A stretch of 64,000 nucleotides of DNA from a candidate division Zixibacteria bacterium SM23_81 (GTDB taxonomy: Bacteria; SM23-81), in NCBI GenBank assembly GCA_001304015.1, contig LJUY01000004.1, forward strand, positions 1-64,000, in the 5' to 3' direction. A model generated the notes under the pieces. It did not search any database. It saw only the letters and a list, made by a program, of their open reading frames with translations, and was not told the origin of the DNA. Shown piece by piece: positions 22,366 through 58,969 of the stretch. Position 1 is the first letter of the stretch, and each line of letters begins with the position of its first letter. The position numbers were made by a program, and so were the translations under genes.

Positions 22366-23820
22366 ATGAAAACGCGGTTCTTTTTTACGCTGTTACTCGT
22401 TTTCATTCTGGTCCAGCACGGTCATGCTCAGACAATCACTATGGGTGAATTCCTCGGTCTTATTCAGGAGCGCCACCCGTTCTTCGAAAAAGAATCCCTG
22501 TCGGTGGAGATCGAGAATAAAGCTCAAGCTGGACTTCTGGGCTCCGAGGATTGGAATATCGGTGGCAGCTCCTTTTTCACACACCAGAAGTTGCTCGCTT
22601 CCAGCACTTTTAGCCCCGACCGGCTCGATGTGCTGGGCATCGATGCGAGGGCTGAACGCGCCTTCTGGAAGACCGGAGGGCGGTTCTCGCTTTCCTGGTC
22701 ATCCCAGTTCTCAGACCAGAAGCTAGCCGATATCGTCATCCCTTTTCCCAACGGCAGCATGGTTGTTCCCACCGGTCCATCAGAATTCTATCAGCATAGG
22801 GTGTACGCCAGTTATGCGCAACCGCTGCTCCAGAACTACAGCGGAAAGCTGGACCGCCTGGAGTACGAGCTGAGCGACTATGAGATCGATTTCACCGAGG
22901 TGCAGATTCTTGAAAACCAAGAAGGTTTTATGGTGGATCTGGCCGGCCGTTTTCTGGACTGGGTCCTGCTCACAGAGCAGAAACGGATCGCCGGGGAGAG
23001 AACCCGTTTGGCCGAAGAGGAACTCGAGCGAACGGTTCAAAAACGGAAATCCTATCTGGTGGATCAGGTCGATGTTCTTCGGGCTGGGGATGCCGTCCGC
23101 ATCGCCCAGCAGAACGTGGTCCTGATCGAATCGCAGTGGAAGGCGCTCCGAGCGGAACTGTCGGTCCTGTGCCAATCGGAGGAAATGTGCGAGAAACGCC
23201 CCGAATTCGACCTCTACCACATGGAATTGCTCCCCGCCCCGGAGGACGCCCGTCTGAAATTGAGAGAACAATCCAGGATACTGGCGACGCTCGGCATCCG
23301 CAAAGATCAGCTCATACATCTCAAGGGCGGCTTCGAGGAACAGGAGCGGCCGAAGCTGTTTCTCAATCTGGGAGCCGGTCTGCAAGGGGGAGATGATGAG
23401 TTCGCCGACGCTCTGAAACTGGACAAACCCGACATGTCGATTGCCCTCGTGTTTCAATATCCCCTGGAAAACCGCACTGCACAGGCCAACACTGCCAAGA
23501 CAAGATTAGAGATCGACAGGCTCGACAGGGATATCGAGAACATTTCCTTGGATCTGGAATCTGGGGTGGTAAACCTGTTGATCCTTATCCAGGAGATGGA
23601 GAGAGTCTTAGAGCTGAACCAGGAGCAGATTGTGTCGGCCCGAGCAAAAACGGAGGAAGAGCTCAACCTTTACAACCAGGGGCGGGGGGATCTGACCTTC
23701 GTCATCTTGAGCCGGGACAATGAGCAGCAAGCTAAATTAACCTATGCGCAGAATGCCGCGTCGTATCAGAAACTTGTTTTGCAGTATAGAGCTTTGATGG
23801 ACGAGTTCTTTGGGGAATAG
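22366..23820 (+). CDS. TolC-family outer membrane efflux protein
   Basis: Outer-membrane channel-tunnel protein of 484 residues. A cleavable signal peptide is visible (MKTRFFFTLLLVFILVQHGHA). The body shows long amphipathic helices with heptad character, such as RTRLAEEELERTVQKRKSYLVDQVDVLRAGDAVRIAQ (split here: helix near 205-240) and a second set near 385-470 (RLDRDIENISLDL, LNLYNQGRGDLTFVILSRDN), the two-repeat pattern of the family. Length is normal. The likely partner is the RND pump 587 bp downstream; the usual membrane-fusion protein is absent, and a four-helix-bundle gene lies between. A strong promoter precedes the gene. Confidence 0.88.
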   Translation: MKTRFFFTLLLVFILVQHGHAQTITMGEFLGLIQERHPFFEKESLSVEIENKAQAGLLGSEDWNIGGSSFFTHQKLLASSTFSPDRLDVLGIDARAERAFWKTGGRFSLSWSSQFSDQKLADIVIPFPNGSMVVPTGPSEFYQHRVYASYAQPLLQNYSGKLDRLEYELSDYEIDFTEVQILENQEGFMVDLAGRFLDWVLLTEQKRIAGERTRLAEEELERTVQKRKSYLVDQVDVLRAGDAVRIAQQNVVLIESQWKALRAELSVLCQSEEMCEKRPEFDLYHMELLPAPEDARLKLREQSRILATLGIRKDQLIHLKGGFEEQERPKLFLNLGAGLQGGDDEFADALKLDKPDMSIALVFQYPLENRTAQANTAKTRLEIDRLDRDIENISLDLESGVVNLLILIQEMERVLELNQEQIVSARAKTEEELNLYNQGRGDLTFVILSRDNEQQAKLTYAQNAASYQKLVLQYRALMDEFFGE

Positions 23821-24337
23821 CAATGGCAATATATAAAATAAATGCATGTAGAAAGTATTTAGGGGAAAACTCATATAAGATGGGCTTGAAATCACATCGT
23901 GGGGAGGAGTCGCTATGCCCGGCAATTTTTAAGGACATGAAGGTTTACCAAATGGCTTACAGATTAGCCATGGATATATTTAAAATCTCCAAATCATTTC
24001 CTAAAGAAGAGATGTATTCACTTACCAATCAAGTCAGACGTTCTTCTCGGTCAGTATGCTCTAATAACGCCGAAGCTTACCGTAAACGGCGCGATCCAAA
24101 GCATTTATCCCTTAGAATTTCCGACGCTGATAGCGAAGCGAGCGAGACACTCGTTTGGCTAGATTTTGCCAAAGACTGCGGCTATATTTCGTTAAGAACA
24201 TATAAATCTTTGTCTGCAAAGTATGAAGAAGTCGGTAGAATGCTTGGCGGCATAGCTAAACATGCTGAGCCATTTATTCCTAAGTAACCGGACTGAGTAC
24301 CCAACACTGCCATTGCTATTGCCATTGCCATTCTCAT
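23816..24337. mobile_element. Candidate four-helix-bundle (IVS-like) insertion element 1, 6-bp-period arrays
   Basis: A four-helix-bundle gene framed by short inverted tracts. The left tract at 23816-23833 reads as 6-bp units like atggca and includes the tolC stop codon. The right tract at 24308-24337 holds five units of the complementary type (tgccat). A perfect 12-bp inverted pair, gcaatggcaata (23820-23831) and its complement (24317-24328), closes the element. It separates tolC from its pump gene. No transposase is present and no target duplication is evident. Confidence 0.55.
23823..24287 (+). CDS. Four-helix-bundle protein (S23/IVP/Avd-like family)
   Basis: Small helical protein of the family encoded by intervening sequences in bacterial 23S rRNA genes and related to Avd of diversity-generating retroelements; members form basic pentamer-like bundles that bind nucleic acid. 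The recognisable domain starts at FKDMKVYQMAYRLAMDIFKI and continues with LTNQVRRSSRSVCSNNAEAY and SEASETLVWLDFAKDCGYIS. The usual IAEG at helix 2 is NAEA here. The start is uncertain: ATG at 23823 begins 3 bp after the tolC stop, while ATGs at 23880 and 23937 give lengths nearer the family norm of about 120. It lies between two arrays of short repeats. Confidence 0.85.
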   Translation: MAIYKINACRKYLGENSYKMGLKSHRGEESLCPAIFKDMKVYQMAYRLAMDIFKISKSFPKEEMYSLTNQVRRSSRSVCSNNAEAYRKRRDPKHLSLRISDADSEASETLVWLDFAKDCGYISLRTYKSLSAKYEEVGRMLGGIAKHAEPFIPK

Positions 24338-24406
24338 CCTGAATTGAATATCTTAATACAAACTTAATACAACATTAAACATAATTTCACAAGGAGCAGC
24401 CCGATT

Positions 24407-27400
24407 ATGAAACGCTTCTTCCAGTTTTTCGCAGAAAGGCACCTTCTTGCCATCCTCATCACCCTGATGATCCTCCTGCTGGGATATAACACCTTCAGAA
24501 CGATTCGCCGGGATATGTTTCCCGAGGTGGACTTCGGGGAGATGTTCATCAATACGCGCTACCCGGGGGCTTCACCGGAGGACGTGGAGCTGAACGTCAC
24601 CAACAAGATCGAGGAGCAGCTCAAGGAGGTTACCGGCATAAAGACGATGACCTCGGTGTCCATGGAGAACATCTCCTTTGTCGACGTGATCATCGACCCC
24701 AATGCCAAAGACCAGGAAAAGGTTAAAACCGAGGTTCGGGATGCCGTCGGCCGGGTCACGGATCTGCCCGAGGAGGTCACCGACGCACCCCTGGTCACCG
24801 AGCTGAAGACCACCATCTTTCCGGTCATCGAGGTGGGGATTGCCGGAGATTTGCCCTACGCTCAACTTCGTCAAATCGCTAAGGAGCTGGAGAAGAAGCT
24901 GGTCAACGTTCCCGGGGTATCCAGTGTCACCAAGCTCGGCTATCTGGCCCGCGAGATTCAGATCGAAGTTTCTCCCGACGCGATGAGGAAATATCAAATA
25001 CCGCTATGGGAGATCATCGTCGCCGTCCAGGCCCGCAACATCCGCTCCACCGGCGGCTCTTTCGAGTCCTATACTAGCGAGAAAGATCTGGTTACCCTGG
25101 CCCAGTTCGACGACCCCCTGGAGGTGAAAAACGTCATCGTCCGCTCTACCTTCGAGGGTCCTCTTATCCGGGTTAAGGACCTGGCCGTTGTCAAGGATGA
25201 TTTTGAGAACGCCAAGGTGCTCTCACGAATGAACGGCCGGGCAGCCATCTCCTTTCTGGTGAACAAGAAAGAGATGGCCGACGCCATTCGCACGGTGGAC
25301 GCGGTGAAAAAGCTTCTCAATGATGAACGCCAGAGACTTCCGGAAGGCGTCGACATACTGCTCACCGATGACTTCTCCCGCTACGTCCGCAATCGATTCA
25401 GCGTGGTGCAAAACAACGGGCTCATTGGGCTCGCCATGGTATTGATCGTGCTGGGTGTCTTTCTCAATTTCCGGGTGGCTCTCTGGGTGGCCATGGGGAT
25501 TCCGGTGGCTCTGCTGGGTGTCATCTTCCTGCTGCCCCTTTTCGGCGCCTATCTGGACAGCATCGCCCTGGCTGCCATGATCATGGTTATCGGCATCATC
25601 GTCGATGACGCCATCATCATCGCGGAGAACATACAAAAGCACCGGGAACGGGGAGAGCCGCCCTTGAAGTCGGCCGTAGAGGGTATCCAGGAAGTCTACG
25701 GCCCAGTGCTGACCACTATCCTGACCACCTTCATCGCCTTCGCACCGCTGTTTCTGATGACGGGCATTTTGGGGAAGTTCGTCTTCGTCATCCCCCTGGT
25801 CATCAGCCTGGCCCTGTTCGTCTCGCTCATCGAGGCCACCGTTGCTTTGCCGTCCCATCTCATCATGGGGCTGCCCGGGGAGGGCTGCCAACCGGGAAAG
25901 GCCGGCAGCCGGGGATGGTTCCTTCGTCTTCAGGCGCCCTTTCGACGTTTCATCTGTCATATTTTGCGATTTCGCTACATCGTGGTCTTCCTGGCCATTA
26001 TGGCCCTGGCCGCTTCGCTGTGGTACGCCGGTAACTATATGAAATTCAGTTTATTCCCGTCACAGATGGCCGATGAATTCTATATCTTCATCGATCTGCC
26101 GACCGGTTCATCGCTGGCGGCCACCTCCGAGAAGGTCAGGGAGATAGAGGCGTTAGTGATGGACCTGCCCGAGGGAGAGCTGGAATCCTTCAGCACCCGG
26201 ATCGGGGAGAAGGAAGGCTGGTATCAGGTCGGAGAAAACGAGAACTGGGCGGTGGTGTCCGTCAATCTGACCCCCTTCTCGGAGCGAGACCGCAACGCCG
26301 ACCAGATCGTCGAAGAACTTCGCGCCAAAACAGATCAATTGCTCGGTTACGATGAGATCGTCTACTACATCGAGGCCGGGGGTCCTCCGGTGGGGCGGGC
26401 CATCACCCTCAGGGTGGTCGGGTCCGATGACGCCCTGCGGAAATCCCTGGCCGACTCGGTGGTCGCTTACATGGTCTCCTTTGGTGGGATCAAGGACATC
26501 GAGCGGGACGACAAGTTGGGAAAGGAGCAGGTGGAGATCAAGATAAATTACGACAAGCTCTCCCGGCTGGGGCTGACCGTGGCCGATATCGCCCAGAATG
26601 TCCGCATCGCCTATGATGGCCAGACGGTGACCAGCGTGCGCTATGGCGACGAGGATGTGGACTTTCGCGTTCTGTTTCAGGAAAAGGTGCGCACGGGAAC
26701 GAAGTATCTCAGCGACCTTCCCATTCCCAATCAAAGAGGGCGCCTGATACCGCTCAAAGAAGTGGCCTGGTTCCAGGCTGGACCCGGCCCCCAAAACTAC
26801 TATCATTATGATGGCGACCGCGCCATCACCATTACCGCGGATATCGTCAAGGACCAGACCACATCTCTGGAGGCAACTCAGGCTATTTTAAACCACTTCA
26901 AGCTGGACAGTGATTGGCCAGGGATGCGCTTCGAGCTGGGCGGCGAGGCGGAGGAAACCCAGGAGTCCATGGCCAGTCTGGGAAGGGCCTTCCTGGTGGC
27001 CATCATTGGGATCTATTTCATCCTCATCCTGCTGTTCAACAAGCTGACCCAGCCCCTCATGGTCATGACGGCCATTCCCTTTGGCATCGCCGGCGTCATC
27101 TTCGCTTTCGCTCTGCACGGCGAGGCTCTGGGATTTGTGGCCATCATGGGCATCATCGGCCTGGGAGGTGTGGTGGTCAACGACTCCCTGGTGCTGGTAA
27201 GCCATATCAACCGGCTTCAGGTCCAGATGCCCAATGAGGATATCAAAAAGGTAGTCGCCCGAGGGTCCGCAGACCGTTTGCGGGCCGTCGTCCTAACCAC
27301 TCTGACGACCGTGGGAGGGGTTCTGCCCTTGGCCTATGGATTCGGCGGCACTGACCCTTATATGGCTCCCATGTGTCTGGCGCTGGCCTACGGCCTTCTG

Positions 27401-27547
27401 TGCGCCACGCCCATTACCCTGGTCCTGGTTCCCAGCCTGTATGTCATTCGTTATGATGTCGGGTCCATCCTGCTGCGACTGGGCGAGAAGTTGGGTATCA
27501 AGCGAGAATGCCCAGAGCCCGAAACTTCTTCTGAGGAATCCAAATGA
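24407..27547 (+). CDS. RND-family efflux pump inner-membrane permease (AcrB/MMPL superfamily)
   Basis: Proton-driven exporter of 1046 residues with twelve expected membrane helices in two halves. TM1 is followed by the periplasmic pore-domain start FPEVDFGEMFINTRYPGASP. TM4 carries GIIVDDAIIIAENI with Asp400 and Asp401, the proton-relay pair of the family. The second half ends with GIIGLGGVVVNDSLVLVSHI and LPLAYGFG. The ribosome-binding site AAGGAG precedes the ATG. A TolC-type channel is upstream, but no membrane-fusion (HlyD/AcrA) gene is present in the window, so the periplasmic adaptor must be elsewhere or lost. A short ORF overlaps the stop by four bases. Confidence 0.95.
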   Translation: MKRFFQFFAERHLLAILITLMILLLGYNTFRTIRRDMFPEVDFGEMFINTRYPGASPEDVELNVTNKIEEQLKEVTGIKTMTSVSMENISFVDVIIDPNAKDQEKVKTEVRDAVGRVTDLPEEVTDAPLVTELKTTIFPVIEVGIAGDLPYAQLRQIAKELEKKLVNVPGVSSVTKLGYLAREIQIEVSPDAMRKYQIPLWEIIVAVQARNIRSTGGSFESYTSEKDLVTLAQFDDPLEVKNVIVRSTFEGPLIRVKDLAVVKDDFENAKVLSRMNGRAAISFLVNKKEMADAIRTVDAVKKLLNDERQRLPEGVDILLTDDFSRYVRNRFSVVQNNGLIGLAMVLIVLGVFLNFRVALWVAMGIPVALLGVIFLLPLFGAYLDSIALAAMIMVIGIIVDDAIIIAENIQKHRERGEPPLKSAVEGIQEVYGPVLTTILTTFIAFAPLFLMTGILGKFVFVIPLVISLALFVSLIEATVALPSHLIMGLPGEGCQPGKAGSRGWFLRLQAPFRRFICHILRFRYIVVFLAIMALAASLWYAGNYMKFSLFPSQMADEFYIFIDLPTGSSLAATSEKVREIEALVMDLPEGELESFSTRIGEKEGWYQVGENENWAVVSVNLTPFSERDRNADQIVEELRAKTDQLLGYDEIVYYIEAGGPPVGRAITLRVVGSDDALRKSLADSVVAYMVSFGGIKDIERDDKLGKEQVEIKINYDKLSRLGLTVADIAQNVRIAYDGQTVTSVRYGDEDVDFRVLFQEKVRTGTKYLSDLPIPNQRGRLIPLKEVAWFQAGPGPQNYYHYDGDRAITITADIVKDQTTSLEATQAILNHFKLDSDWPGMRFELGGEAEETQESMASLGRAFLVAIIGIYFILILLFNKLTQPLMVMTAIPFGIAGVIFAFALHGEALGFVAIMGIIGLGGVVVNDSLVLVSHINRLQVQMPNEDIKKVVARGSADRLRAVVLTTLTTVGGVLPLAYGFGGTDPYMAPMCLALAYGLLCATPITLVLVPSLYVIRYDVGSILLRLGEKLGIKRECPEPETSSEESK

Positions 27548-27801
27548 GAAAATGGGCATCTTTTTGCTTAATCTTGTTGACCGTTTTTGTCTCTTTTTCC
27601 AGGCCGGCCGATTCGCAAAAGCTCCTTGAGTACGTAGCGCAAGGCGACACCTTGGCTCAGAATAGAAGCGCCCTCCTTTTCCCTCGATACTTTCCTGTTC
27701 GCTGGAGGCTAGAATCGGTTTTGGAGCCGGGGCGGATTATTTTTTTCAAAGATGCTGGACAGCGCCGTTACCCAAAGAGCGTGAGCAACATCTTGCCATG
27801 A
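27544..27801 (+). CDS. Short ORF coupled to the RND gene, possibly a gene remnant
   Basis: Not recognised. The ATG overlaps the RND stop codon (ATGA), and the 85-residue product starts with a plausible signal peptide (MRKWASFCLILLTVFVSFSRP, cut near DSQ), followed by KLLEYVAQGDTLAQN. After about residue 45 the sequence becomes basic and irregular (PRYFPVRWRLES) and looks like a shifted frame. It could be the 5' part of a decayed exported-protein gene, perhaps a lost pump subunit, or a genuine small exported protein. The overlap supports translation; the function is open. Confidence 0.45.
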   Translation: MRKWASFCLILLTVFVSFSRPADSQKLLEYVAQGDTLAQNRSALLFPRYFPVRWRLESVLEPGRIIFFKDAGQRRYPKSVSNILP

Positions 27802-27954
27802 TCGAGACTGGGTCCCACCAGTGTCTTGATTGACTCAGCCTCTCCTTCCCTTCGATTTCGCTCATGTCACAAATTTCTTCTGGATTTCATTCTACACAGA
27901 ACGTATTTTGAGGCCGATATTGATCCTGCCAAATGGAAGTAAAACCTTCCGAGA

Positions 27955-28434
27955 ATGATCTTGAAACAGAAACCAGCCCAGTTGAGAACATACTGGAAGA
28001 ATTACTTCTTTCAGAGCCTTTTTGCCGGCCTGTCAGTGTTTGTATTGTTGGTCGTCCTGCACATGCGGAACATCGTGGTGGTGGCCTCCATCGGATCGAC
28101 GGCCTTCATCATCTTCACCATGCCCCGGGAAATAACGGCTAAGGCAATAAACGTCATCGGCGGACACATGGTGGGTTTCGCTTGCGGGGCGCTGTGCGCT
28201 CTGATCCCAAACTCCTATTATTTTCCGCCCGCTCTGAGTTATTCCGTCGCGGTGGGCCTGTCCATTTTCATCATGGTGGTCACCGACAGCGAACACCCAC
28301 CGGCGGCCGGAACGGCTTTGGGCGTGGCTATCTCTGGTTTTTCCTGGCAGGTGTTCATCTCCCTGGTCATCAGCGTGGTCACCCTCTCTTTGATCCATCA
28401 CTTCTTCAAGGCACATCTGAAAGATTTGGTATGA
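27955..28434 (+). CDS. HPP family membrane protein
   Basis: Integral membrane protein of 159 residues with four predicted helices and the family signature SEHPPAAGTALGVA. Further conserved stretches are ASIGSTAFIIFTMP and GHMVGFACGAL. HPP proteins are widespread; in cyanobacteria and plants some act in nitrite transport across membranes, but bacterial stand-alone members are mostly uncharacterised. No strong ribosome-binding site is visible before the ATG. It lies 31 bp before a kinase-like gene and might be co-transcribed with it. Confidence 0.92.
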   Translation: MILKQKPAQLRTYWKNYFFQSLFAGLSVFVLLVVLHMRNIVVVASIGSTAFIIFTMPREITAKAINVIGGHMVGFACGALCALIPNSYYFPPALSYSVAVGLSIFIMVVTDSEHPPAAGTALGVAISGFSWQVFISLVISVVTLSLIHHFFKAHLKDLV

Positions 28435-28465
28435 GAAATCCCGGATGAGATAGGAATGCTTTCAA

Positions 28466-29107
28466 ATGCCCCCGAAACTGCCGCCCAAGCTCTGTCCCAA
28501 GATCATCCTGGAAGGCACCCGGCTGACGCATAAGACCGACATCGCCTTTAAGCTGAATGAACATCCGCAGATTGTTGGGCCTCGCAAATACCGCTACCAC
28601 GCTCCTATTATTTCCGCTGAATGGTGTGGATTCACGAATTTTCCCTGGGGGCGTGGGCTGATAAACTTCGAGCCACAGGAAGAAGAGATGGCCATGGAGA
28701 CGTATCGAACCTGGGCCAGATTGTTCGAATTGCTCAAGTATTACTCCTGGATTGTGGACCGATTTCACCTTTCAACGATCGTCTACCAATTACGCCAGGG
28801 ACGTCACTATGACTTCAAATGGCTGGAGGAGCGATTGGCACCCCTGGGTTTTTGTATTGTTTTCTGTACCCGGACGAAGGAATCATTCGCACGAGCCAGA
28901 GAGAAACGCGTGAAAATCTCCGGCGAACCAAAGCAATACGGCGACTTAAGCGTTTTCATCGAGGAGCAGGAGAAGTTTCGAAAGGCCCTCTCGACATCAA
29001 CTTTGCCTCATCTCGAGGTGGACATGTCCAACGATGATGTCGAATTGGCCTGCCAGACGATTGCGGACTGGTTGAAAGAAAATGATCTGCTGAGATTCCG
29101 TACTTGA
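28466..29107 (+). CDS. Nucleotide-kinase-like P-loop protein with altered Walker A
   Basis: A 213-residue protein that resembles thymidylate/deoxynucleoside kinases. It starts with a strand and loop KIILEGTRLTHKTDIAFKL (12-30), where a normal P-loop would read G-x4-G-K-T; here Gly22 is replaced by His (G17-TRLT-HKT). Central DRFHLS (98-103) matches the DR-x(H)-x-S motif of these kinases. FCIVFCTRTKESFARAREKR (129-148) fits the strand plus LID Arg region. The conserved Lys23-Thr24 is kept, so nucleotide binding may remain. The substrate is unknown; phage-like dNMP kinase ancestry is possible. The assignment rests on motif order seen by eye. Confidence 0.6.
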   Translation: MPPKLPPKLCPKIILEGTRLTHKTDIAFKLNEHPQIVGPRKYRYHAPIISAEWCGFTNFPWGRGLINFEPQEEEMAMETYRTWARLFELLKYYSWIVDRFHLSTIVYQLRQGRHYDFKWLEERLAPLGFCIVFCTRTKESFARAREKRVKISGEPKQYGDLSVFIEEQEKFRKALSTSTLPHLEVDMSNDDVELACQTIADWLKENDLLRFRT

Positions 29108-29177
29108 TGGAAGCTCCACAAAATAGATGAATCGCTATCTTTGCCCAGGCGGATCTCTGTCTGTTTGGATACTTCAC

Positions 29178-31759: not shown

Positions 31760-31791
31760 GTGGCTTGCCGTGACTGTGTCCATGAACAAAG

Positions 31792-31863
31792 TTTAGAGAA
31801 TTGAGCGAGTTAGGCGAGTTGAGAGAGTTAGAAAAATTAAAAGAGTTAGGACAGTTTACAGAG
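31792..31863. repeat. 9-bp-period tandem array, left arm of element 2
   Basis: Eight consecutive degenerate 9-bp units (72 bp exactly) of consensus ttagagag plus one variable base, in direct orientation. The last unit abuts the GTG start of the four-helix-bundle gene. Confidence 0.9.
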
Positions 31864-32225
31864 TGAAAATAAATAAACTCGAGGATATTGAGGCTTGGCA
31901 GAGGGCTAGGAAATTAGTACAGGAGATATATCGAATTACTGCTCGAGATGGGTTCTCAAAGGACTTTGGACTGAGGGATCAAATTCGGCGTGCGGCTGTT
32001 TCCATCATGTCATCGATCGCCGAGGGATTTGGTAGACGTTCAAACCGCGAATTCGCGAACTTTCTGAACTATTCTCACGGATCTACCGCCGAGGTTCAAT
32101 CTCATTTTTACGTCGCGCTTGACCAGAGTTATATCGAGAAGAAGACTTTCAATTCTCTATACAAACAGTGTGATGAAATATCTCGTATGGTGTTATCCCT
32201 CAGTAAATATCTTCGTAAAAAGTAA
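31863..32225 (+). CDS. Four-helix-bundle protein (S23/IVP/Avd-like family)
   Basis: A 120-residue member of the same family as the protein at 23.8 kb, but only distantly similar to it. It shows the full signature: LEDIEAWQRARKLVQEIYRIT, LRDQIRRAAVSIMSSIAEGFGR, REFANFLNYSHGSTAEVQSH and a Lys-rich end. The family is best known from 23S rRNA intervening sequences and from Avd in diversity-generating retroelements; free-standing members have no established role. The start is a GTG at the end of the left repeat array with no clear ribosome-binding site. Location inside a transporter gene cluster suggests insertion. Confidence 0.92.
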   Translation: MKINKLEDIEAWQRARKLVQEIYRITARDGFSKDFGLRDQIRRAAVSIMSSIAEGFGRRSNREFANFLNYSHGSTAEVQSHFYVALDQSYIEKKTFNSLYKQCDEISRMVLSLSKYLRKK

Positions 32226-32226
32226 A

Positions 32227-32326
32227 TTCAGCGAGTTGAGTGAGTTAAGCGAGTTAAGAACTAAGGAAATCCTATGATGATAATCTCTGCAAACTCTCCA
32301 AACTCTCTAAACTCTCCTAACTCTTA
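32227..32326. repeat. 9-bp-period arrays, right side of element 2
   Basis: Four direct 9-bp units (32227-32262, like ttaagcgag), a 22-bp spacer, then inverted units (32285-32326, like ctctctaaa). The inverted part is the mirror of the left arm. The end of the array, ttagg, may serve as a weak ribosome-binding site for the next gene. Confidence 0.88.
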
Positions 32327-32336
32327 GGTCCAAACC

Positions 32337-33284: not shown

Positions 33285-33388
33285 TGAATTTTTCCCTAAA
33301 AGTGGTTGACAAAACCCATAGGACTTAATATTTTATCACTACCTTTGAGACCAAAGATTTTCGATAGCGGGTTTTTGCCACCAGAATT

Positions 33389-34378: not shown

Positions 34379-34443
34379 AGCTCAGTATCAATTAGAGGTG
34401 GGAAGGAAAAAATTTTTCCCTCATGTCCAAGGAGGATGAGCAT

Positions 34444-34785
34444 ATGGCGATCAAAGAAACGATCAGAGGCGACGTGGCCGTTCTGAATCTGAGAGGGAAA
34501 CTCATGGGAGGGCCCGACTCGACAGCTCTGCATGATAAAGTTCACGGCCTGATCGCCGACGGCATTAAACAGGTGGTCATCGACCTGGGAAAAGTGAAGT
34601 GGATGAACAGTTCCGGATTAGGTGCTCTGATGGCCGCCCTCACCACCCTGCGCAACGCCGGCGGCGATCTGAAGCTGGCCAACGTAACCAAGAAGATCGA
34701 AAGCCTGTTGTTGATTACCAAGCTGATTACCGTTTTTGAGACATACGAGACGGCGGACAGAGCTGTAGTCAGCTTTCGGCAATAG
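34444..34785 (+). CDS. STAS-domain anti-sigma factor antagonist (SpoIIAA/RsbV-like), copy 1
   Basis: A 113-residue partner-switching protein. It has VIDLGKVKWMNSSGLGALM (45-63); Ser57 aligns with the phosphorylated Ser of SpoIIAA, although the preceding Asp of the usual DSSG is Asn. When unphosphorylated it should bind an RsbW-type kinase; RsbU-type phosphatases reset it. Such kinase and phosphatases are encoded at 7.5-13.2 kb. The ATG at 34444 follows AAGGAGGATGAGCAT; an ATG at 34423 lies ahead of that site. A symmetric ggaaaaaatttttcc (34405-34419) precedes it. A terminator follows. Confidence 0.93.
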   Translation: MAIKETIRGDVAVLNLRGKLMGGPDSTALHDKVHGLIADGIKQVVIDLGKVKWMNSSGLGALMAALTTLRNAGGDLKLANVTKKIESLLLITKLITVFETYETADRAVVSFRQ

Positions 34786-34808
34786 GCGAGAACTGCTGAG
34801 AGAAACAG

Positions 34809-34832: not shown

Positions 34833-34887
34833 ATGAAGGTACCGCTGAAAAACTGATTATCGACTCCTTACCCAAAGAGGTGATACC

Positions 34888-35229
34888 ATGGCAATTAAGG
34901 AAAGCGTGAGCGACGGCATAGCTGTCCTGGCACTGAAAGGAAAACTCATGGGAGGGCCCGACCCCTTAGCGCTGCACGATAGAGTTCACGGTCTCATCGG
35001 CGATGGCATCAAACAGGTTGTCGTCGATCTGGGAAACGTGAAATGGCTGAACAGCTCGGGCTTAGGAGCGCTGATGGCTAGCCTCACCACGCTTCGTAAC
35101 GCAGGGGGCGATCTGAAATTGGCCAAGGTGGGCAAAAAGATCGAAAGCCTGCTGTTGATCACAAAGCTCATCAGCGTGTTTGAGATATACGATTCTGTGG
35201 ATAGGGCCGCAGCCAGTTTCGGGAAATAG
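34888..35229 (+). CDS. STAS-domain anti-sigma factor antagonist (SpoIIAA/RsbV-like), copy 2
   Basis: A tandem paralogue of the preceding gene with exactly the same length, 113 residues. The two proteins are very similar (GGDLKLA, KKIESLLLITKLI shared), pointing to a local duplication. The site VVDLGNVKWLNSSGLGALM (45-63) keeps Ser57. Its own ribosome-binding site (GAGGTGATACC) and the terminator upstream suggest independent expression. Two antagonists for the RsbU/RsbW proteins 20 kb away could give input-specific switching; that link is inference. Confidence 0.93.
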   Translation: MAIKESVSDGIAVLALKGKLMGGPDPLALHDRVHGLIGDGIKQVVVDLGNVKWLNSSGLGALMASLTTLRNAGGDLKLAKVGKKIESLLLITKLISVFEIYDSVDRAAASFGK

Positions 35230-46308: not shown

Positions 46309-46344
46309 CATCGATGGCGCTCATACGCTGAGATATATTTACCT

Positions 46345-47772: not shown

Positions 47773-47812
47773 CACTTATCCCTAAACGGATTATCAGCTG
47801 AAAGGTGTGACT

Positions 47813-49219: not shown

Positions 49220-49242
49220 TCTGAGATCATTGAGGAAGCGCC

Positions 49243-50931: not shown

Positions 50932-50939
50932 GAAGGAAA

Positions 50940-51965: not shown

Positions 51966-52028
51966 GCAGTGATAGCAGAGCTTTTCATAATGTAACGCAA
52001 GACAAAAAGGCGCCCAGATACAAAACGG

Positions 52029-52290
52029 AGAATATAGAGATAGCTTATGCCAGAACTTTCCCGAGGGCTACGGCTTGGTGAAAGGAAACATCACACCAGA
52101 CTCGACTCGCGTCGGGAGCACAATATTGAACAGCAAGCTGAGCAATAAAGGCGTACTGATTTTGGGCATGGAAAGAGGAACAATTTGGATTCCCATACCC
52201 AAGGACGAAGAGACCATTCAGATTGGCGACAAGCTGGTGGTTTATGGTATTCTTAGCTCTCTGAGAGGTGTATTCCATCAAGTATCATAA
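52029..52290 (+). pseudogene. TrkA-C (RCK C-terminal) domain remnant
   Basis: About 70 codons encode a clear TrkA-C domain: STILNSKLSNKGVLILGMER, IPIPKDEETIQIGDKLVVYG. This domain is normally the C-terminal regulatory module of potassium channels, TrkA or anion permeases. The only in-frame start is a TTG at 52075. Just upstream, ENIEIAYARTFP reads as the preceding linker but in another frame, so a frameshift lies near 52060. No membrane or nucleotide-binding part remains. A free TrkA-C protein cannot be excluded, but a relic fits better. The MFS gene begins 27 bp after its stop. Confidence 0.6.
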
Positions 52291-52317
52291 CCTTCCACTC
52301 GTTCTTAACGTTATCAT

Positions 52318-53790
52318 ATGAAGTTCGCAGTTAAAGACGGTTTAACGGAAGAAGAAATCCAATCTGGGCTCAGAAACGTCATCAGAGACGGATTGGCTAC
52401 TCAGGCTATGGTTACCCTTACAGGTGGCGTCTTTCTGGTAGCCTTCGCTTTACGCCTTGGGGCGTCCAATGTCATCATCGGGCTGCTGGCCGCCATCCCT
52501 CCGTTGGCTCAATTGCTCCAAATACCAGCGATTTATTTAGTAGAGAAATACAGGGTCAGACGTGCCATTACGGTATATGCAGCTTCTTCGGCAAGAATAT
52601 TCTGGCTGTTGATCGCCCTGATTCCATTGATAGCGACAACAAGTGCCGGGTTGCCCATTCTCTTAGTGGCGCTATTTTTACACTCTGCCCTTGCTTCAAT
52701 AGGAGGTGGAAGCTGGAATTCCTGGATGCGAGATCTGGTTCCGCAGGAACGCCTGGGATCTTTCTTTTCCAAAAGAATGCGTCTCGCTATTGGTCTGGGG
52801 ATTCCCCTCAGCATCGCCGCCGGTTCTTTTGTGGATATCTGGCAAAGGCAATTTTCCAATTACCAGTTATATAGCTATTCGATTCTTTTCTTTCTTGGAT
52901 TTGTGGCGGGTATGATAGGGATTCGCTTCATATCAACTATACCAGAACCTCGCATGGCCACCATAGTGGAAAAGCCCAGGTTTTTTCGCCTACTGGCGAA
53001 GCCCTTTAAAGACGAGAACTTTAAAAACCTGATCCTTTTTCTGGGCTCCTGGAATTTCGCCATCAATCTGGCCGCCCCCTTCTTCACCGTGTACATGCTT
53101 CGGCGGCTCGAGCTGAGCATGACCTACGTTATTGCTCTGATGGTGTTAAGTCAAATTATGAACGTGTTATTCATCCGCGCATGGGGGAGATTCGCTGACC
53201 ATTTAAGCAACAAATCGGTGCTCGCGGTCAGTGGTCCCCTCTTCATGATCTGCATATTGGCCTGGAGCTTCACCACGTTGCCCGAGAAGTATTTCTTAAC
53301 CGTACCCTTGCTGATCGCCATACACATCTTCATGGGCATCTCCATGGCCGGCGTTACTCTGGCAAGTGGCAACATAGGACTGAAATTAGCGCCGAAAGGG
53401 CAGGCCACGGCCTACCTGGCAGCCAATAGTGTCATCAATTCACTGGCAGCTGGTATTGCCCCTATTCTGGGAGGCCAATTCGCCGATTTCTTCTCCAAAC
53501 AGGAATTATCCTTGACCCTGAGATGGACCAGCCCGACGAGAGAGCTCGCTCTACAACCCCTTAACCTCCAACAATGGGATTTCTTCTTTATCCTGGCTTT
53601 CCTCATCGGGCTGTATTCCATCCACCGCCTTGCTATGGTCAAAGAGGTGGGGGAGGTAGAGGAAAAAGTTGTCGTTCAAGAACTCATTGCCGAGGCCAGA
53701 AGGCTGACCAGAAGCCTCTCTCCCGTTGGTGGCCTGCGCCAGCTGACCCAATTTCCCTTTGCTGCGATTCGAAAAATCTCTGGGAAATAA
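52318..53790 (+). CDS. Major facilitator superfamily transporter
   Basis: Inner-membrane transporter of 490 residues with about twelve helices. Family features are the N-terminal half with GVFLVAFALRLGASNVIIGL, the loop EKYRVRRAITVYAAS, and SWNSWMRDLVPQERLGSFFSKRM (about 131-153), which reads like the motif region of a small MFS group seen in environmental bacteria. A central loop and a second half (IMNVLFIRAWGRFADHLSNK) follow. The C-terminal tail of about 60 residues (VEEKVVVQELIAEARRL) is cytosolic and helical. Substrate unknown. No ribosome-binding site is evident before the ATG. Confidence 0.9.
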   Translation: MKFAVKDGLTEEEIQSGLRNVIRDGLATQAMVTLTGGVFLVAFALRLGASNVIIGLLAAIPPLAQLLQIPAIYLVEKYRVRRAITVYAASSARIFWLLIALIPLIATTSAGLPILLVALFLHSALASIGGGSWNSWMRDLVPQERLGSFFSKRMRLAIGLGIPLSIAAGSFVDIWQRQFSNYQLYSYSILFFLGFVAGMIGIRFISTIPEPRMATIVEKPRFFRLLAKPFKDENFKNLILFLGSWNFAINLAAPFFTVYMLRRLELSMTYVIALMVLSQIMNVLFIRAWGRFADHLSNKSVLAVSGPLFMICILAWSFTTLPEKYFLTVPLLIAIHIFMGISMAGVTLASGNIGLKLAPKGQATAYLAANSVINSLAAGIAPILGGQFADFFSKQELSLTLRWTSPTRELALQPLNLQQWDFFFILAFLIGLYSIHRLAMVKEVGEVEEKVVVQELIAEARRLTRSLSPVGGLRQLTQFPFAAIRKISGK

Positions 53791-53869
53791 ACGCAGGTGT
53801 GAAGTAGAATCTATCCGGCGACGCTTGTGAGCTGACCATCGCGAAAGATTAGAAAAGGAGGTGAGACTT

Positions 53870-54934
53870 ATGTCACGCTTGACCAAACGAATGTCCCACA
53901 AAGCCGGCCTGCCTCCCGGCAGCCTGGTTCACATCGGAAAAAGAAAAGTCGAGAAGACCAGGATCACCCTCATGGACTATGATGAGAGGCAGTTTCAGGA
54001 GAAAGAGGCCAAGACCATTGAGGAGTGTTTCCCGTTCAAGGACACGCCCACCGTCACCTGGGTGAATATCGATGGCGTCCACGATGTGGACATCGTCGAG
54101 AAGATCGGCCGGCATTTCGGCATTCACCCGCTGGTTCTGGAGGATATCGTCAACACCAGACAGCGCCCAAAGATGGAGGACTTTGAGGATTACATCTTTA
54201 TCGTCTTGAAGATGATCACCTACGACGAGAAGACAAGCGAGATGTACTCTGAGCAGGTCAGCATGATTCTGGGCAAGAACTTCGTGATCTCCTTCCAGGA
54301 ACGTCAGGGCGACGTCTTCGATCCCATTCGGGATCGAATCCGCAACAGTAAGGGCCGCATCCGAAAGGCGGGATCCGATTACCTGGCCTACACCTTGCTG
54401 GACGCCATCGTGGATGGCTACTTCTTCGTCCTCGAAAACCTTGGGGAGAGAATCGAGATTCTCGAGGATGAGGTCATCGAGAACCCGACCTCGGAAACAC
54501 TCCAGGTCATCAACAGCCTGAAACGGGAGATGATCCTGCTGCGAAGGTCGGTCTGGCCCCTGCGGGAGGTGATTGGCGCTCTGGACAGGAGCGGTTCTTC
54601 CCTGATCCATGAGTCGACTGGAACCTACCTCCGGGACGTTTACGATCACACCATCCAGGTCGCTGATACCATAGAATCCTTTCGAGACATGATCACGGGA
54701 ACTCGCGATACCTACCTGTCCAGCCTCAGCAACAGGATGAACGAAGTGATGAAGGTGTTGACCATCATCGCCACCATCTTCATTCCAGTAACCTTTATCG
54801 CCGGGATCTACGGGATGAACTTCGAGTTCATGCCGGAGCTGGGTTGGCGCTGGAGCTACTTCATCGTCTGGGGGGTCATGGTTGCGGTCGCTGTGACTAT
54901 GATCGCATATTTCAGAAGGAAAACCTGGCTCTAA
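53870..54934 (+). CDS. corA: Magnesium/cobalt transporter CorA
   Basis: Divalent-cation channel of 354 residues. The cytosolic funnel domain (HPLVLEDIVNTRQRPKMEDF) leads through the long stalk helix to two C-terminal membrane helices. The selectivity motif YGMNF lies at the end of TM1 (Gly315-Met316-Asn317), followed by MPEL and the short basic tail FRRKTWL. The ATG at 53870 follows AAAGGAGGTGAGACTT, nearly a perfect ribosome-binding site; a GTG at 53861 is part of that site. The small LapA gene begins 24 bp downstream. Confidence 0.96.
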   Translation: MSRLTKRMSHKAGLPPGSLVHIGKRKVEKTRITLMDYDERQFQEKEAKTIEECFPFKDTPTVTWVNIDGVHDVDIVEKIGRHFGIHPLVLEDIVNTRQRPKMEDFEDYIFIVLKMITYDEKTSEMYSEQVSMILGKNFVISFQERQGDVFDPIRDRIRNSKGRIRKAGSDYLAYTLLDAIVDGYFFVLENLGERIEILEDEVIENPTSETLQVINSLKREMILLRRSVWPLREVIGALDRSGSSLIHESTGTYLRDVYDHTIQVADTIESFRDMITGTRDTYLSSLSNRMNEVMKVLTIIATIFIPVTFIAGIYGMNFEFMPELGWRWSYFIVWGVMVAVAVTMIAYFRRKTWL

Positions 54935-54958
54935 AAACCTTTAACATACGGGAACATT

Positions 54959-55168
54959 ATGAAACCGAAAACCGTCATCATCGTGCTGCTCTTGCTTCTC
55001 TCCCTGGTGATCCTCATCCAGAACACCGAGGTGGTTACTCTGCGAGTTCTCTTTTGGCATGTAAGCATGTCCCGAATTCTGCTCATCCCGTTGCTCATGA
55101 TCGTCGGGTTCGCCGTCGGGTATCTGGTCGCTGCCCTGAGAAGGAAGAAATCTGGCCGTGAGATCTGA
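54959..55168 (+). CDS. LapA-domain (DUF1049) small membrane protein
   Basis: A 69-residue protein with two membrane helices: an N-terminal one (TVIIVLLLLLSLVILIQNTE) and LLIPLLMIVGFAVGYLVAAL, ending in a basic RRKKSGRE. QNTEVVTLRVLFW between them is the family signature. In E. coli LapA and LapB are linked to control of lipopolysaccharide synthesis; here LapB is not nearby. It is probably co-transcribed with corA. Confidence 0.9.
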   Translation: MKPKTVIIVLLLLLSLVILIQNTEVVTLRVLFWHVSMSRILLIPLLMIVGFAVGYLVAALRRKKSGREI

Positions 55169-55374
55169 GTCTGTCGGAAGTCGGTTAACGACGCCGAAGT
55201 AGGTGACAGTATTCGTGGGTTGTCTGTTGCCAATCGAAGGAAAAAACTCCTGACCAGTATGTCTCCGTCATTCGACATCCTACAGACGAGTGACGTAACG
55301 AGTTTCGAAACCGACAAACGATTCAGGATTCATCGCCCGGATGGCACTGGTTATGTTGCCGCTTCGCTTGTCGC

Positions 55375-55398
55375 TTGGATAGCTGGATAACTTGGATT
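55375..55398. repeat. Three degenerate 8-bp repeats before a membrane-protein gene
   Basis: Three adjacent units of the type ctggataa (55375-55398). They immediately precede the ATG at 55405 and resemble the short-period arrays elsewhere in the window, though too few units remain to be sure. The rest of the 55169-55374 gap shows no gene. Confidence 0.45.
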
Positions 55399-55404
55399 AA
55401 TCAA

Positions 55405-55806
55405 ATGCTCATTATCGATGCGGCTATCAATCTAGTCCTGGGTTTTTTACTACTGGTCTTTCCCCTTGACGTGTTCCAGCTGCTGGGATTGCCCATTGAA
55501 GCGCCCTCCTTTTATACAAGCATCCTAGGAGGTGTGCTTGTTGGGGCAGGGATTGCCCTACTCATCGAGCGTTTCAGAAGCCCAGCAGACATGGTTGGGT
55601 TGGGGCTGGGTGGGGCCATAACCATCAATATCTACGCAGCGCTGATCCTGGCCGGATGGTTGGTGAGTGGGAAACTTAGCCTTCCCCTGCGTGGACGCTT
55701 GGTGCTCTGGGGGTTGGTGGTCATTTTAGTGGCTATTAGCTGGTTTGAATTGCGGGCACATCGGAAGAAAAAACATTCCGGTATTCATGCCAATGCATAT
55801 CAATGA
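55405..55806 (+). CDS. Four-helix membrane protein of unknown function
   Basis: A 133-residue integral membrane protein, not assigned to a named family. Helices are roughly IIDAAINLVLGFLLLVFPL, FYTSILGGVLVGAGIALLIE, LGLGGAITINIYAALILAGW and LVLWGLVVILVAISWFEL, ending in a basic His/Lys-rich tail (RAHRKKKHSG). The motif FPLDVFQLLGLP followed by a second pair of helices suggests a two-fold hairpin. The ATG at 55405 is used; a TTG at 55375 lies within short repeats and is unlikely. tldE follows after 60 bp. Confidence 0.7.
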   Translation: MLIIDAAINLVLGFLLLVFPLDVFQLLGLPIEAPSFYTSILGGVLVGAGIALLIERFRSPADMVGLGLGGAITINIYAALILAGWLVSGKLSLPLRGRLVLWGLVVILVAISWFELRAHRKKKHSGIHANAYQ

Positions 55807-55866
55807 TGAAACTTAATTAACGAAGGTGATGAGGAATCAGTACCCTAAAGAAAGGAGTAAAACGAC

Positions 55867-57213
55867 GTGCTGGGAAAAGAGAAACTCAGTGACATCGCCA
55901 ATCAGGTGCTGAAACTGTCCAGTGCCGACCAGACAGAGGTGCTGATCTTCTCCAACGATGAGCACTTGACCCGCTTTGCGGTGAACACCATTCACCAGAA
56001 CGTCTCGGAAACAGATGTGACGGTGCGAGTGCGGGCCGTGTTCGGGAAAAAGACAGGCGTTGCCTCGGGCAACGACCTGAGCGACAAGGCGCTCCAGAAG
56101 ACGGTTAAATCGGCGGAGATGGCAGCACGCTTTCAGCAGGACAATCCAGACTTTCACTCTCTGCCCAAGCCTCAGGCAGCCAGGGAAGTCGACGCTTATT
56201 TTGAGCCGACGGCGGTGTGTGCTCCAGAAAAGCGAGCCCAAGGTGCAACCGCCATCTGCACCATGTCGCGGGAGAACAATTTGGAGGCAGCAGGCGCCTT
56301 CTCCACGGCGGTCAATGAGCTCATGGTGGTCAACTCTCTGGGCACTGCCGCGTACCATTGCGGGACCATCGCCCACATCGTCACTGTCATCATGGGAGAG
56401 ACCAGCTCCGGATATGCATCGGCCGACGCCATGGACGTATCGAAGCTTGATCCCGCAGCTGTGGGCCGGGTGGCCGTGGAGAAGGCCCTTCGCGGTCAAA
56501 ATCCCTCGGAGATCGAGCCTGGCGAATACACCGTGATCCTGGAGGAGAACGCCGTTGCCGACATGTTGGGGCTTCTGGGATATCTGGGTTTCGATGCGCT
56601 GTCGGTGCAAGAAGGGCGCAGTTTCATGAACGGCCGGTTCGGGGAGAAGATCACCGGTGATAACATCACAATTTGGGACGATGGCTACGATACCAGGGGG
56701 TTGATGCTGCCCTTCGATTATGAGGGGGTACCCAAGCAGCACGTGACTCTCATCGACAGGGGCATCGCCAAAGGAGTGGTCTACGATTCCTTCACCGCCG
56801 GTCGAGAGGAGGGAAAAGTCTCCACCGGCCACAGCTTGCCCGCGCCCAACACGTGGGGTCCCGTGGCCGTGAATCTGTTCATGGCTCCGGGCCAGGCGAC
56901 CAAAGAAGAGATGCTGGCGTCTACAGAACAAGGCATCTGGGTGACGCGCTTTCACTACACCAATCCTCTACACCCGGTGAAAACGGTTATTACGGGCATG
57001 ACCCGCGATGGGACCTTTCTCATCGAGGATGGCCAGATCACTCGGCCCCTAAAAAATCTGCGTTTTACGCAAAGCATCCTGGAGGCGTTCGACAGAGTGG
57101 AGATGTTGGGCTCGGAGCTGAAGCTGATCAAGTCCGATTGGGAGAACTTCGCCACCTGTGCTCCAGCCGCCAAGATTCGGGACTTTCGCTTCACCGGAAC
57201 AACTGAATTTTAA
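55867..57213 (+). CDS. tldE: TldE/PmbA-family metalloprotease subunit
   Basis: Subunit of 448 residues of the TldD/TldE heterodimeric protease that degrades unfolded peptides and matures some RiPPs such as microcins. It has the N-terminal fold (TEVLIFSNDEHLTRFAVNTIHQ), GASGN-like KTGVASGNDLSDKAL, and the late catalytic-domain region GYTV-like EYTVILEENAVADMLGLLGY and DYEGVPKQHVTLIDRG, but no HExxxH motif, as expected of TldE. GTG at 55867 follows AAAGGAGTAAAACGAC. The partner tldD lies 260 bp downstream beyond an inverted repeat array. No precursor peptide gene was recognised. Confidence 0.9.
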   Translation: MLGKEKLSDIANQVLKLSSADQTEVLIFSNDEHLTRFAVNTIHQNVSETDVTVRVRAVFGKKTGVASGNDLSDKALQKTVKSAEMAARFQQDNPDFHSLPKPQAAREVDAYFEPTAVCAPEKRAQGATAICTMSRENNLEAAGAFSTAVNELMVVNSLGTAAYHCGTIAHIVTVIMGETSSGYASADAMDVSKLDPAAVGRVAVEKALRGQNPSEIEPGEYTVILEENAVADMLGLLGYLGFDALSVQEGRSFMNGRFGEKITGDNITIWDDGYDTRGLMLPFDYEGVPKQHVTLIDRGIAKGVVYDSFTAGREEGKVSTGHSLPAPNTWGPVAVNLFMAPGQATKEEMLASTEQGIWVTRFHYTNPLHPVKTVITGMTRDGTFLIEDGQITRPLKNLRFTQSILEAFDRVEMLGSELKLIKSDWENFATCAPAAKIRDFRFTGTTEF

Positions 57214-57248
57214 TGAGGAAAATACTCCTGTTCGTGTTTGTTAAAAAG

Positions 57249-57411
57249 AGGATTCAAGGATTCATAAGATCAAGGGGTCGAGGACTCAAGGGGTCAAGGA
57301 TTCGAGTGCCACCCCACTCTGCCTTTAATTAGTAAGTGTCTCTTTTGCTTTTCCCTGGAATCCTCGAATCCTGGGGTGGTGTAGCAGGGTGGAGGGGAAT
57401 CCTTGAATCCT
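57249..57411. repeat. 8-bp-period arrays in inverted orientation between tldE and tldD (element without a gene)
   Basis: The left array has seven exact 8-bp units at 57251-57306 (type gattcaag). The right array at 57355-57411 has units of the complementary type (ctcgaatc), with one phase shift. Nested perfect inverted pairs occur: 15 bp at 57249-57263 with 57397-57411, and 10 bp at 57297-57306 with 57363-57372. Only 48 bp lie between the arrays and no gene is present. The architecture equals that around the four-helix-bundle genes. Confidence 0.85.
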
Positions 57412-57473
57412 GTTCTAATTGGATCTGGTACTCTCACTTTCACATCGCTCATTCTTTCGGTTAGGAGAATTTC

Positions 57474-58937
57474 ATGAAAGAACTCACAGACCGTGCTCTA
57501 AACCTGGCTCAAGTTCAGGGAGCCAGTTACGCCGATATTCGGATTGTGCAGCGGGAAAGGCAGGACATCTCCGTAAAGAACGGTGTCGTTCAGCAACTTT
57601 CTCTGGACGGCTCCCGGGGATTTGGCGTCAGGGTTGTCGCCGATGGAGCATGGGGTTTTGCCAGCAGCCATATGGTCACCGCTGCCGAGGTGGATCGGAT
57701 CACGGCTCTGGCCGTGTCCATCGCCAAAGCCAGCGCCATGGCCAAGATCCAGGACGTCGATCTTGGGATTGAGGAAGTGCACCAAGACACCTATCGTACA
57801 CCAGTAGAGGTCGATCCCTTTTCCGTGCCGCTCAATGAGAAGATCTCTCTGCTGATGGAGGCAGATAAGGAAGCTCGTTCAGTGAAGGGGGTCAAGGTGG
57901 CCGAGTCCAGCATGGCTTTTATCCGGGAGACCAAAACCTTTGCCAGCACGGAGAGCAGCTACATCGAGCAGGAGATCGTCGAGAGCGGGTTGGGCATTGT
58001 GGTCCGAGCGGTGGCCAAAGGCGAGGTGCAACAGCGATCCTATCCCAACTCCTTCGGGCGGCACCAGGGAACGGCCGGCTACGAGCTCATTAAAAAGTGG
58101 GATTTAGTGGGCAACGCCCGGCGAATGGGCGAGGAGGCCGTAGCCCTGCTCAGCGCGCCGCAATGTCCCAGCGGTGTCACCGCCCTCATTCTGGATGGCC
58201 CCCAGTTGGCTCTGCAGGTCCACGAATCGTGCGGCCACCCCATCGAACTGGATCGAGTGTTTGGCACCGAAGCAGCCTATGCTGGGACCAGCTTCCTGAC
58301 GCCGGACAAGTACAACAGTCTGCGATACGGTTCCGACATCGTCAACATCACCGCCGATGCGGTGACGCCCACCGGACTGGGCACCTTCGGGTATGACGAT
58401 GAGGGGGTTCCTGCCCAGCGCACGGACATCGTCAAGGATGGCCTGTTCGTCGGCTACCTCACCTCCAGGGAGACGGCCGGGCAGCTGAGAAAGATACATC
58501 CCGACGCCCCGGAGCGTAGCAATGGCTCCATGCGCGCCGACGGCTGGAATCGCATCCCCATCATCCGGATGACCAATGTCAGCCTGCAGCCTGGCAAGTG
58601 GACCCTGGATGATCTCATCGCCGACACCGACGACGGCGTTTACATGATTACCAACAAAAGCTGGAGCATTGACGATAAGCGGCTCAACTTCCAATTCGGC
58701 ACCGAGATGGCTTACCAGGTTAAGAACGGCAAGCTGGGCCAGATGTACAAGAACGCCACCTACACGGGCATCACGCCTCAATTCTGGGGAGGCTGCGATG
58801 CCATCTGCAATGCCGACCACTGGCATGTGTGGGGTACGGCAAACTGCGGAAAGGGACAGCCCGGCCAGGTGGCGCACACCGGGCATGGAGCCGCCCCCGC
58901 TCGCTTTCGTAACGTCCAGGTGGGGGTGATGAAGTAA
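57474..58937 (+). CDS. tldD: TldD metalloprotease
   Basis: Zinc-dependent catalytic subunit of the TldD/TldE protease, 487 residues. The metal site HESCGH (250-255) fits HExxxH, and a third ligand Cys should lie in the C-terminal GGCDAICNADHW region. Other landmarks are YADIRIVQRERQDISVKNGV, GFGVRVVADGAWGFAS, NRIPIIRMTNVSLQPG and the end TGHGAAPARFRNVQVGV. AGGAGAATTTC precedes the ATG. It follows tldE on the same strand and should form a heterodimer with it despite the 260-bp gap. Confidence 0.95.
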   Translation: MKELTDRALNLAQVQGASYADIRIVQRERQDISVKNGVVQQLSLDGSRGFGVRVVADGAWGFASSHMVTAAEVDRITALAVSIAKASAMAKIQDVDLGIEEVHQDTYRTPVEVDPFSVPLNEKISLLMEADKEARSVKGVKVAESSMAFIRETKTFASTESSYIEQEIVESGLGIVVRAVAKGEVQQRSYPNSFGRHQGTAGYELIKKWDLVGNARRMGEEAVALLSAPQCPSGVTALILDGPQLALQVHESCGHPIELDRVFGTEAAYAGTSFLTPDKYNSLRYGSDIVNITADAVTPTGLGTFGYDDEGVPAQRTDIVKDGLFVGYLTSRETAGQLRKIHPDAPERSNGSMRADGWNRIPIIRMTNVSLQPGKWTLDDLIADTDDGVYMITNKSWSIDDKRLNFQFGTEMAYQVKNGKLGQMYKNATYTGITPQFWGGCDAICNADHWHVWGTANCGKGQPGQVAHTGHGAAPARFRNVQVGVMK

Positions 58938-58941
58938 TAAT

Positions 58942-58969
58942 AGGCAGGAGGCAGTTGGCAGGAAGCAGG
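58942..58969. repeat. Four degenerate 7-bp repeats after tldD
   Basis: Four adjacent units of the type aggcagg (58942-58969), running into a G tract. The unit is close to that of the array at 14184-14211 (aggcagt). No inverted partner and no gene lie beside it. Confidence 0.6.

Follow-up and report, generated by a model that had tools for sequence, protein, structure and literature searches.

We analyze a 64,000-nucleotide stretch of DNA (hereafter, the window) from the candidate division Zixibacteria bacterium SM23_81, in which arrays of short tandem units lie at gene junctions, in two cases on either side of a gene of the S23 protein family (PF05635). The explanation that we favor, with modest confidence, is that a widespread, operon-dwelling mobile element occurs three times in the window, twice in full and once without its gene, and that its ends would be recognized by its own pentameric protein. 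A full copy, as we picture it, would consist of a 5' array of four to five short-period units (usually with G > C), the S23 gene, and an array of the same kind in inverted orientation. This anatomy (array, S23 gene, inverted array) is enriched at S23 genes well beyond the source genome, and the family of elements that an earlier sequence-only reading had proposed for the window extends far outside it, to many bacterial phyla and two archaea among 78 named loci.

To our knowledge, S23 is an orphan family without a function, with crystal structures available since 2006. An excess of heptameric repeats in bacterial genomes is also on record, with no cause attached to it (PMC4692102, PMC4679880). 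If the two are linked, the protein has a predicted ligand, and an origin is predicted for the repeats. Our analysis suggests a little-noticed class of mobile element, which may lie behind the seven-letter repeats scattered through bacterial genomes. If true, this would be a mobile element of very small size, with no known recombinase and with ends that drift along with the protein that may read them, and the rRNA intervening sequence (IVS) would become one special case of S23 elements. In the literature that we searched, which included few subscription papers or preprints, we found no link between S23 and arrays outside Coxiella.

Inverted short-period arrays at S23 genes

The window lies on contig C82 of a 3.07-Mb assembly in 99 contigs. 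Direct and inverted arrays are paired at three of its junctions, with periods of 6 (23815-24333), 9 (31805-32324) and 8 (57246-57414), and the array-bearing junctions lie between co-oriented genes. The first two pairs (elements 1 and 2) enclose S23 genes, both above the curated PF05635 cut-off of 33.8 bits, and S23 is the sole gene between their arrays; the third pair has no gene inside. Elements 1 and 2 pass our thresholds for an array pair (score of at least 28 and periodicity z of at least 4), at which Markov-shuffled versions of the window gave no pair in 512 kb, and the 57246-57414 pair is weaker (inverted score 31, periodicity z only 2.4). No rRNA was found in the window by Rfam, and the elements sit between protein genes. 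The sequence-only reading had counted arrays at four or more junctions plus two traces. Three junctions with direct and inverted arrays hold up, no array was detected at 55375-55398, and the trace at 58942-58969 is weak, with a TRF score that falls among chance scores in the window; its unit resembles the inner arrays of two gene-less pairs in the same genome (L244 and L236).

To gauge generality, we used 78 testable named S23 loci from many bacterial phyla and two archaeal metagenome-assembled genomes (MAGs). Paired arms scoring at least 30 occur at 65% of these loci, versus 0.5% of displaced positions on the same contigs and 1.7% of cross-locus pairs, and weaker arrays are visible by eye in many of the loci scoring below 30. 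Periodicity at P ≤ 0.01 was found in 74 of the 79 loci that have paired arms, with a period of 7 in 56 and of 8 in 18, and the 5' arm has more G than C in 71. The median arm has 4.9 units, and 4 and 5 are the most frequent counts. The unit is particular to each locus, so that layout is common across phyla and sequence is not, exactly as the sequence-only reading had described the window. The S23 gene is co-oriented with both neighbors in 51 of 68 loci, and in 51 of the 55 junctions whose flanking genes are co-directional. Sampled stretches totaling 663 kb from S23-rich genomes contained 10 period-7/8 pairs, compared with 1 in 566 kb from genomes without S23 (P = 0.012). Two cases depart from the usual pattern: L055 has ~31 units per arm (CGGTGGA), far above the usual 4-5, and genome G011 has 19 PF05635 matches, many of them as close opposite-strand pairs ~150-200 bp apart, which is unique among the genomes examined. 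A motif search found no S23 locus inside 23S rRNA among the loci scanned.

The source genome itself has eight PF05635 loci. At seven of the eight, the flank upstream of the gene aligns with the reverse-complemented downstream flank at scores of 29-44, and flanks of different loci compared with each other score mostly 16-28. The array units differ among these loci (AGGATTCA, CGAGATT, GCGAGTTAG, GGTGATC, GGCAAT and an AAATG type); one locus, L006, has no inverted array pair. The enrichment of arrays near genes for four-helix-bundle proteins, whose absence the sequence-only reading had named as grounds for giving up its proposal, is thus strong both here and across phyla, and the proposal of a family, in which S23 elements lie at co-oriented junctions and each has a short-period inverted array of its own, is borne out.

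The exception in the cross-locus flank scores is L007/L008, a candidate inverted element that we dropped because the two loci are orthologs from two related organisms within the bin. L007 (G000:C59) and L008 (C44) are orthologous rlpA - S23 - pyrF stretches, ~80% identical, and the S23 gene of L008 carries two stops. The assembly therefore seems to mix two related organisms.

Probable movement and gene-less copies

In two Thermodesulfobacteriota MAGs, one element (L038 and L057; gene 85% identical, arms and an outer hairpin matching) lies beside different flanking genes. The same element thus occupies different junctions in two genomes.

Gain, loss and replacement are seen at a single Flavobacterium junction that carries S23 in some 22 species. 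There, 21 orthologs with four units per arm align as AG-NNN-C-W-R, with A in 168/168, G in 167/168 and C in 158/168 units and a loose triplet; the unit search favors this frame and the absolute counts are therefore somewhat inflated, the frame being plain in the raw sequences. Within a locus, the arms match at 86% of frame positions and 50% of triplet positions; between loci, these values are 77% and 39%. Flavobacterium S23 clades have distinct array units, AGNNNCAR and AGNNNCTA. In five species (L208, L209, L210, L220, L221) the junction lacks the element and has a conserved plain hairpin, two species have another S23 with other arrays (one of them frameshifted), and one species retains an array remnant only. 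Empty and filled sites are too diverged for a target-site duplication comparison to fix the ends of the element. The hairpin at the empty junctions recalls the rRNA hairpins in which rRNA IVSs sit.

The arrays go with the protein across phyla, and their period tracks S23 ancestry. On the S23 tree, 9 changes of period label are counted, compared with 17.2 by chance (none of 500 shuffles was as low); in a reduced set the figures are 8 and 13.6 (none of 1000). Protein distance and arm similarity are weakly correlated (Mantel r -0.13, 0 of 1000).

Gene-less pairs reuse the unit of an S23 element in the same genome. A 412-kb sample of the source genome contains 10 periodic inverted pairs, six of them without an S23 gene; all six best match an arm of an own-genome S23 locus, and none of 93 foreign loci scores as high. 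For the gene-less pair in the window, the best match among all tested arms is the own-genome locus L001. Three of the six also have a longer dispersed repeat in common. Its tail, TTACCAGCTTCGAAGCCGCCAAACGATTCACGACTCATTTATCC, follows the right arm of L228, L244 and L236, and a partial copy lies at ~55303-55335 of the window, just 5' of 55375-55398.

A second comparison concerns a family of genomes, including G413, whose proteins and repeats suggest a Lysobacter/Xanthomonas type. Here the accB-accC junction contains S23 elements that are 62-68% identical to XCC0516, each arm being made of four GGGAATS or GGGATTC units; these relatives stand in for XCC0516, as no genome with XCC0516 itself was among our samples. 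The array (GGGAWTS)3 is present in 17 of 17 genomes with GGGAWTS-type S23 arms (median 53 matches), in 10 of 25 with other S23 arms, a group that includes S23 genes whose arms were not seen, and in 14 of 75 without S23. The first group differs from S23-free genomes (Fisher P 1.9e-10) and from other-arm genomes (Fisher P 4e-6, for 10 or more hits), values that overstate the evidence because the genomes are related; other-arm and S23-free genomes do not differ. Groups were assigned by hand from printed arms, with G746, G703 and G674 placed by protein similarity (their arms being truncated, not displayed or different from the top-scoring pair). In G413 and G255, dispersed arrays match the S23 arms, and a gene-less copy in G413 keeps element-internal sequence.

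Proposed mechanism and competing explanations

The AlphaFold model of the element 2 S23 protein (pLDDT 96) is a four-helix bundle whose top Foldseek matches are 2gsc (TM 0.88) and 2rld (TM 0.79). Solved relatives have five chains per entry, and XCC0516 has been described as a homopentamer. In the mechanism that we propose, a ring of S23 subunits would recognize the two arrays as element ends by means of a fixed frame that recurs at intervals of 7-9 nt, with each subunit perhaps reading one unit. The gene would be expressed by read-through from the host operon, which may be why it is co-oriented with its neighbors, an arrangement also usual for ordinary operon genes. Array units would drift between lineages together with the protein, and gene-less pairs would be derivatives that rely on a matching S23 or did so in the past. 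No transposase, other nuclease or recombinase lies between the arrays, the only gene there being that for S23, whose fold comparison gave no nuclease; as S23 lacks a known nuclease fold, cutting and joining of strands would need a host enzyme.

A conserved, framed unit at fixed spacing in both arms would fit a repeating binding protein, and S23 is the obvious candidate for that role. The two arms seem to be under equal constraint, a pattern more in keeping with recognition of the DNA duplex, or of either strand, than with a base-paired RNA stem. The suggestion of the sequence-only reading that the protein binds the repeats gains indirect support only, from the fixed frame, the 4-5 units, the tracking of period with phylogeny and the unit-specific co-occurrence, and we keep it as a predicted interaction. 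Whether these elements form a mobile-element category of their own, in which the pentamer reads the array at about one unit per subunit, protein and array co-diversify, and dispersed heptamers are gene-less copies, is a more tentative proposition, and in this full form we lean against it.

Several observations weigh against the mobile-element explanation. The association of period with phylogeny is weaker (P = 0.067) when only distant representatives are kept. The genomes with GGGAWTS arms are not independent, many of them having the same accB-accC insertion; three of five genomes with GGGANTC arrays and S23 (G380, G170, G211) have S23 arms of another unit, and the GGGAWTS-array-rich genomes G693, G655, G669 and G667 have no detected S23. 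An AG core, tried as a universal feature of all arrays and rejected, is common, not universal (33 of 74 three-base cores). Finally, "one unit per pentamer subunit" is only a guess, because counts of 4 are as prominent as counts of 5; a rule of exactly five units per arm, matching the pentamer, was rejected on these counts and on the four units of the Xanthomonas-type arms.

The strongest competitor, unlikely in our estimate, is an IVS of protein operons, in which the arrays would pair in the mRNA and RNase III would cut the stem, removing the element or splitting the transcript, so that the arrays matter as a stem only. The Coxiella 23S IVS combines S23 gene, stem, heptamers and RNase III excision (PMC4990558), some loci have perfect 22-36-bp complementary arms (L004, L017), and the co-orientation counts given above would suit it, except that a middle gene between co-directional neighbors is usually co-oriented even when it is an ordinary one. 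A stem alone does not require a fixed period or 4-5 units. Mismatches between arms show no excess of G-U-compatible changes (80 versus 103 incompatible), about half of the variable-triplet positions in Flavobacterium are unpaired, and the actual order of units pairs only slightly better than a permuted order (mean percentile 0.58 ± 0.04). With the wobble test negative and the unit-order test weak, we rejected covariation as a demonstration of an RNA stem.

Slightly less probable still is a regulatory cassette, in which S23 would bind the operon arrays, and gene-less arrays in trans, to control transcription or translation in the manner of TRAP, with mobility incidental or ancient. The fixed frame and spacing, the 4-5 units and the intergenic positions would all fit, as would trans arrays carrying the same unit as S23 arms and, in Beggiatoaceae, TAACTGA heptamers just upstream of start codons (PMC4679880). 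What speaks against it is that the neighboring genes have no obvious common function, that the element at a given junction is lost or replaced among closely related species, and that one element lies at different junctions in different genomes.

The remaining two explanations we consider very improbable. Passive microsatellites, formed anywhere by slippage and next to S23 by coincidence, would agree with the over-representation of heptamers in bacteria, for which slippage has been proposed (PMC4692102), and are already contradicted by the near absence of arrays at displaced positions, by arms that share one locus-specific unit in inverted order, and by frame positions that stay fixed across species as others vary. 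Generation of arrays by reverse transcription, with S23 as a cofactor like Avd, would draw on the fold match to Avd (TM 0.75). The relationship to Avd that the sequence-only reading proposed holds at that level and no further (E 0.027), and a reverse-transcriptase partner is not supported: the source genome, 92.6% complete, has no RVT_1 match in a search that matched 3 of 14 control genomes. We rejected this origin of the arrays accordingly.

Window features and relation to known systems

The coordinates of the arrays and S23 genes are collected below. The 5' arm of element 1 overlaps a possible S23 start.

Arrays and S23 genes in the window, in order of position
Feature	Position	Strand	Evidence
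Element 1 5' arm, period 6 (GAATAGCAATGGCAATA)	23815-23831	+	Inverted match to 24317-24333, score 29
Element 1 S23-family (PF05635) gene	23823-24287	+	Hidden Markov model match 23931-24248, 104.4 bits
Element 1 3' inverted array, unit TGCCAT	24308-24333	+	TRF and inverted partner
Element 2 5' array, period 9, frame AGTTAGNNN	31805-31863	+	TRF, inverted match score 40
Element 2 S23-family (PF05635) gene	31863-32225	+	127.8 bits
Element 2 second direct array (AGCGAGTTA), between gene and inverted arm	32230-32258	+	TRF
Element 2 3' inverted array (CTCTCCAAA)	32285-32324	+	TRF; inverted match to 31824-31863
Gene-less (solo) element 5' array, period 8, AGGATTCA	57246-57303	+	TRF, inverted score 31
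Solo element 3' inverted arrays (CCTCGAAT / CCTTGAAT)	57354-57414	+	TRF
Possible remnant, direct period-7 array AGGCAGG, without inverted partner	58942-58969	+	TRF score 35

Two other features of the window were noted. At 4217-4538, a perfect 29-bp inverted repeat (TGTAGGGGCGATTCATGAATCGCCCCTAC) surrounds ~265 bp resembling the end of a REP (repetitive extragenic palindrome)-associated tyrosine transposase (RAYT), and this looks like a RAYT/REP remnant. At 34423-34785 and 34888-35229, two small neighboring genes (~113-120 aa) are clear duplicates of each other, and their products look like anti-anti-sigma factors of the STAS-domain type.

Among known systems, miniature inverted-repeat transposable elements (MITEs) and other non-autonomous repeats are similar in that short dispersed copies share terminal inverted sequences with a gene-bearing element. 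The present elements differ in having no recognized transposase and in having ends made of short-period arrays whose unit varies by element. TRAP, a ring protein of 11 subunits, reads short, regularly spaced repeats in single-stranded RNA; a ring reading spaced repeats is the mechanism that we propose for S23 by analogy, the TRAP fold being unrelated and no homology claimed. Avd of diversity-generating retroelements (PDB 4dwl, 8ub7-8ube) has the same four-helix-bundle fold. The source genome, having no RVT_1 match, does not place these elements among such retroelements, whose template and variable repeats were not searched for.

Rehm et al. 2015 described GGGAATC and GGGGA(C/T)T heptamers in Xanthomonas and Nostoc, with four units preferred in the Xanthomonas GGGAATC arrays and 70-75 close inverted pairs per Xanthomonas genome (PMC4692102). 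These share with the present arrays their intergenic position, conserved frame positions, four-unit preference and inverted pairing, and were published as G-quadruplex repeats without a link to S23. The GGGAATC unit forms S23-element arms at accB-accC in the related family, and most simply the Xanthomonas arrays would be gene-less S23 elements, a reading made through relatives, as the flanks of XCC0516 were not seen. The TAACTGA direct repeats of marine Beggiatoaceae, cyanobacteria and Bacteroidetes (PMC4679880) are likewise short intergenic heptamer arrays, with a patchy spread suggesting horizontal transfer, and in sequence TCAGTTA resembles the S23 arm units of L085 and L009; they differ in being mostly direct arrays and were also published without a link to S23.

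The closest known relative is the IVS in helix 45 of the Coxiella burnetii 23S rRNA, which has a 28-bp stem and an S23 gene and is excised by RNase III, and whose 5' region consists of tandem GACAGAT heptamers that vary in copy number between strains (PMC4990558). In both systems an S23 gene lies between complementary ends, and heptamers are present in the Coxiella 5' region. The present elements differ in lying between protein genes, in having a unit for each locus and in having gene-less copies; since they are outside rRNA, we do not file them as rRNA IVSs. The two are probably one type of element in two habitats.

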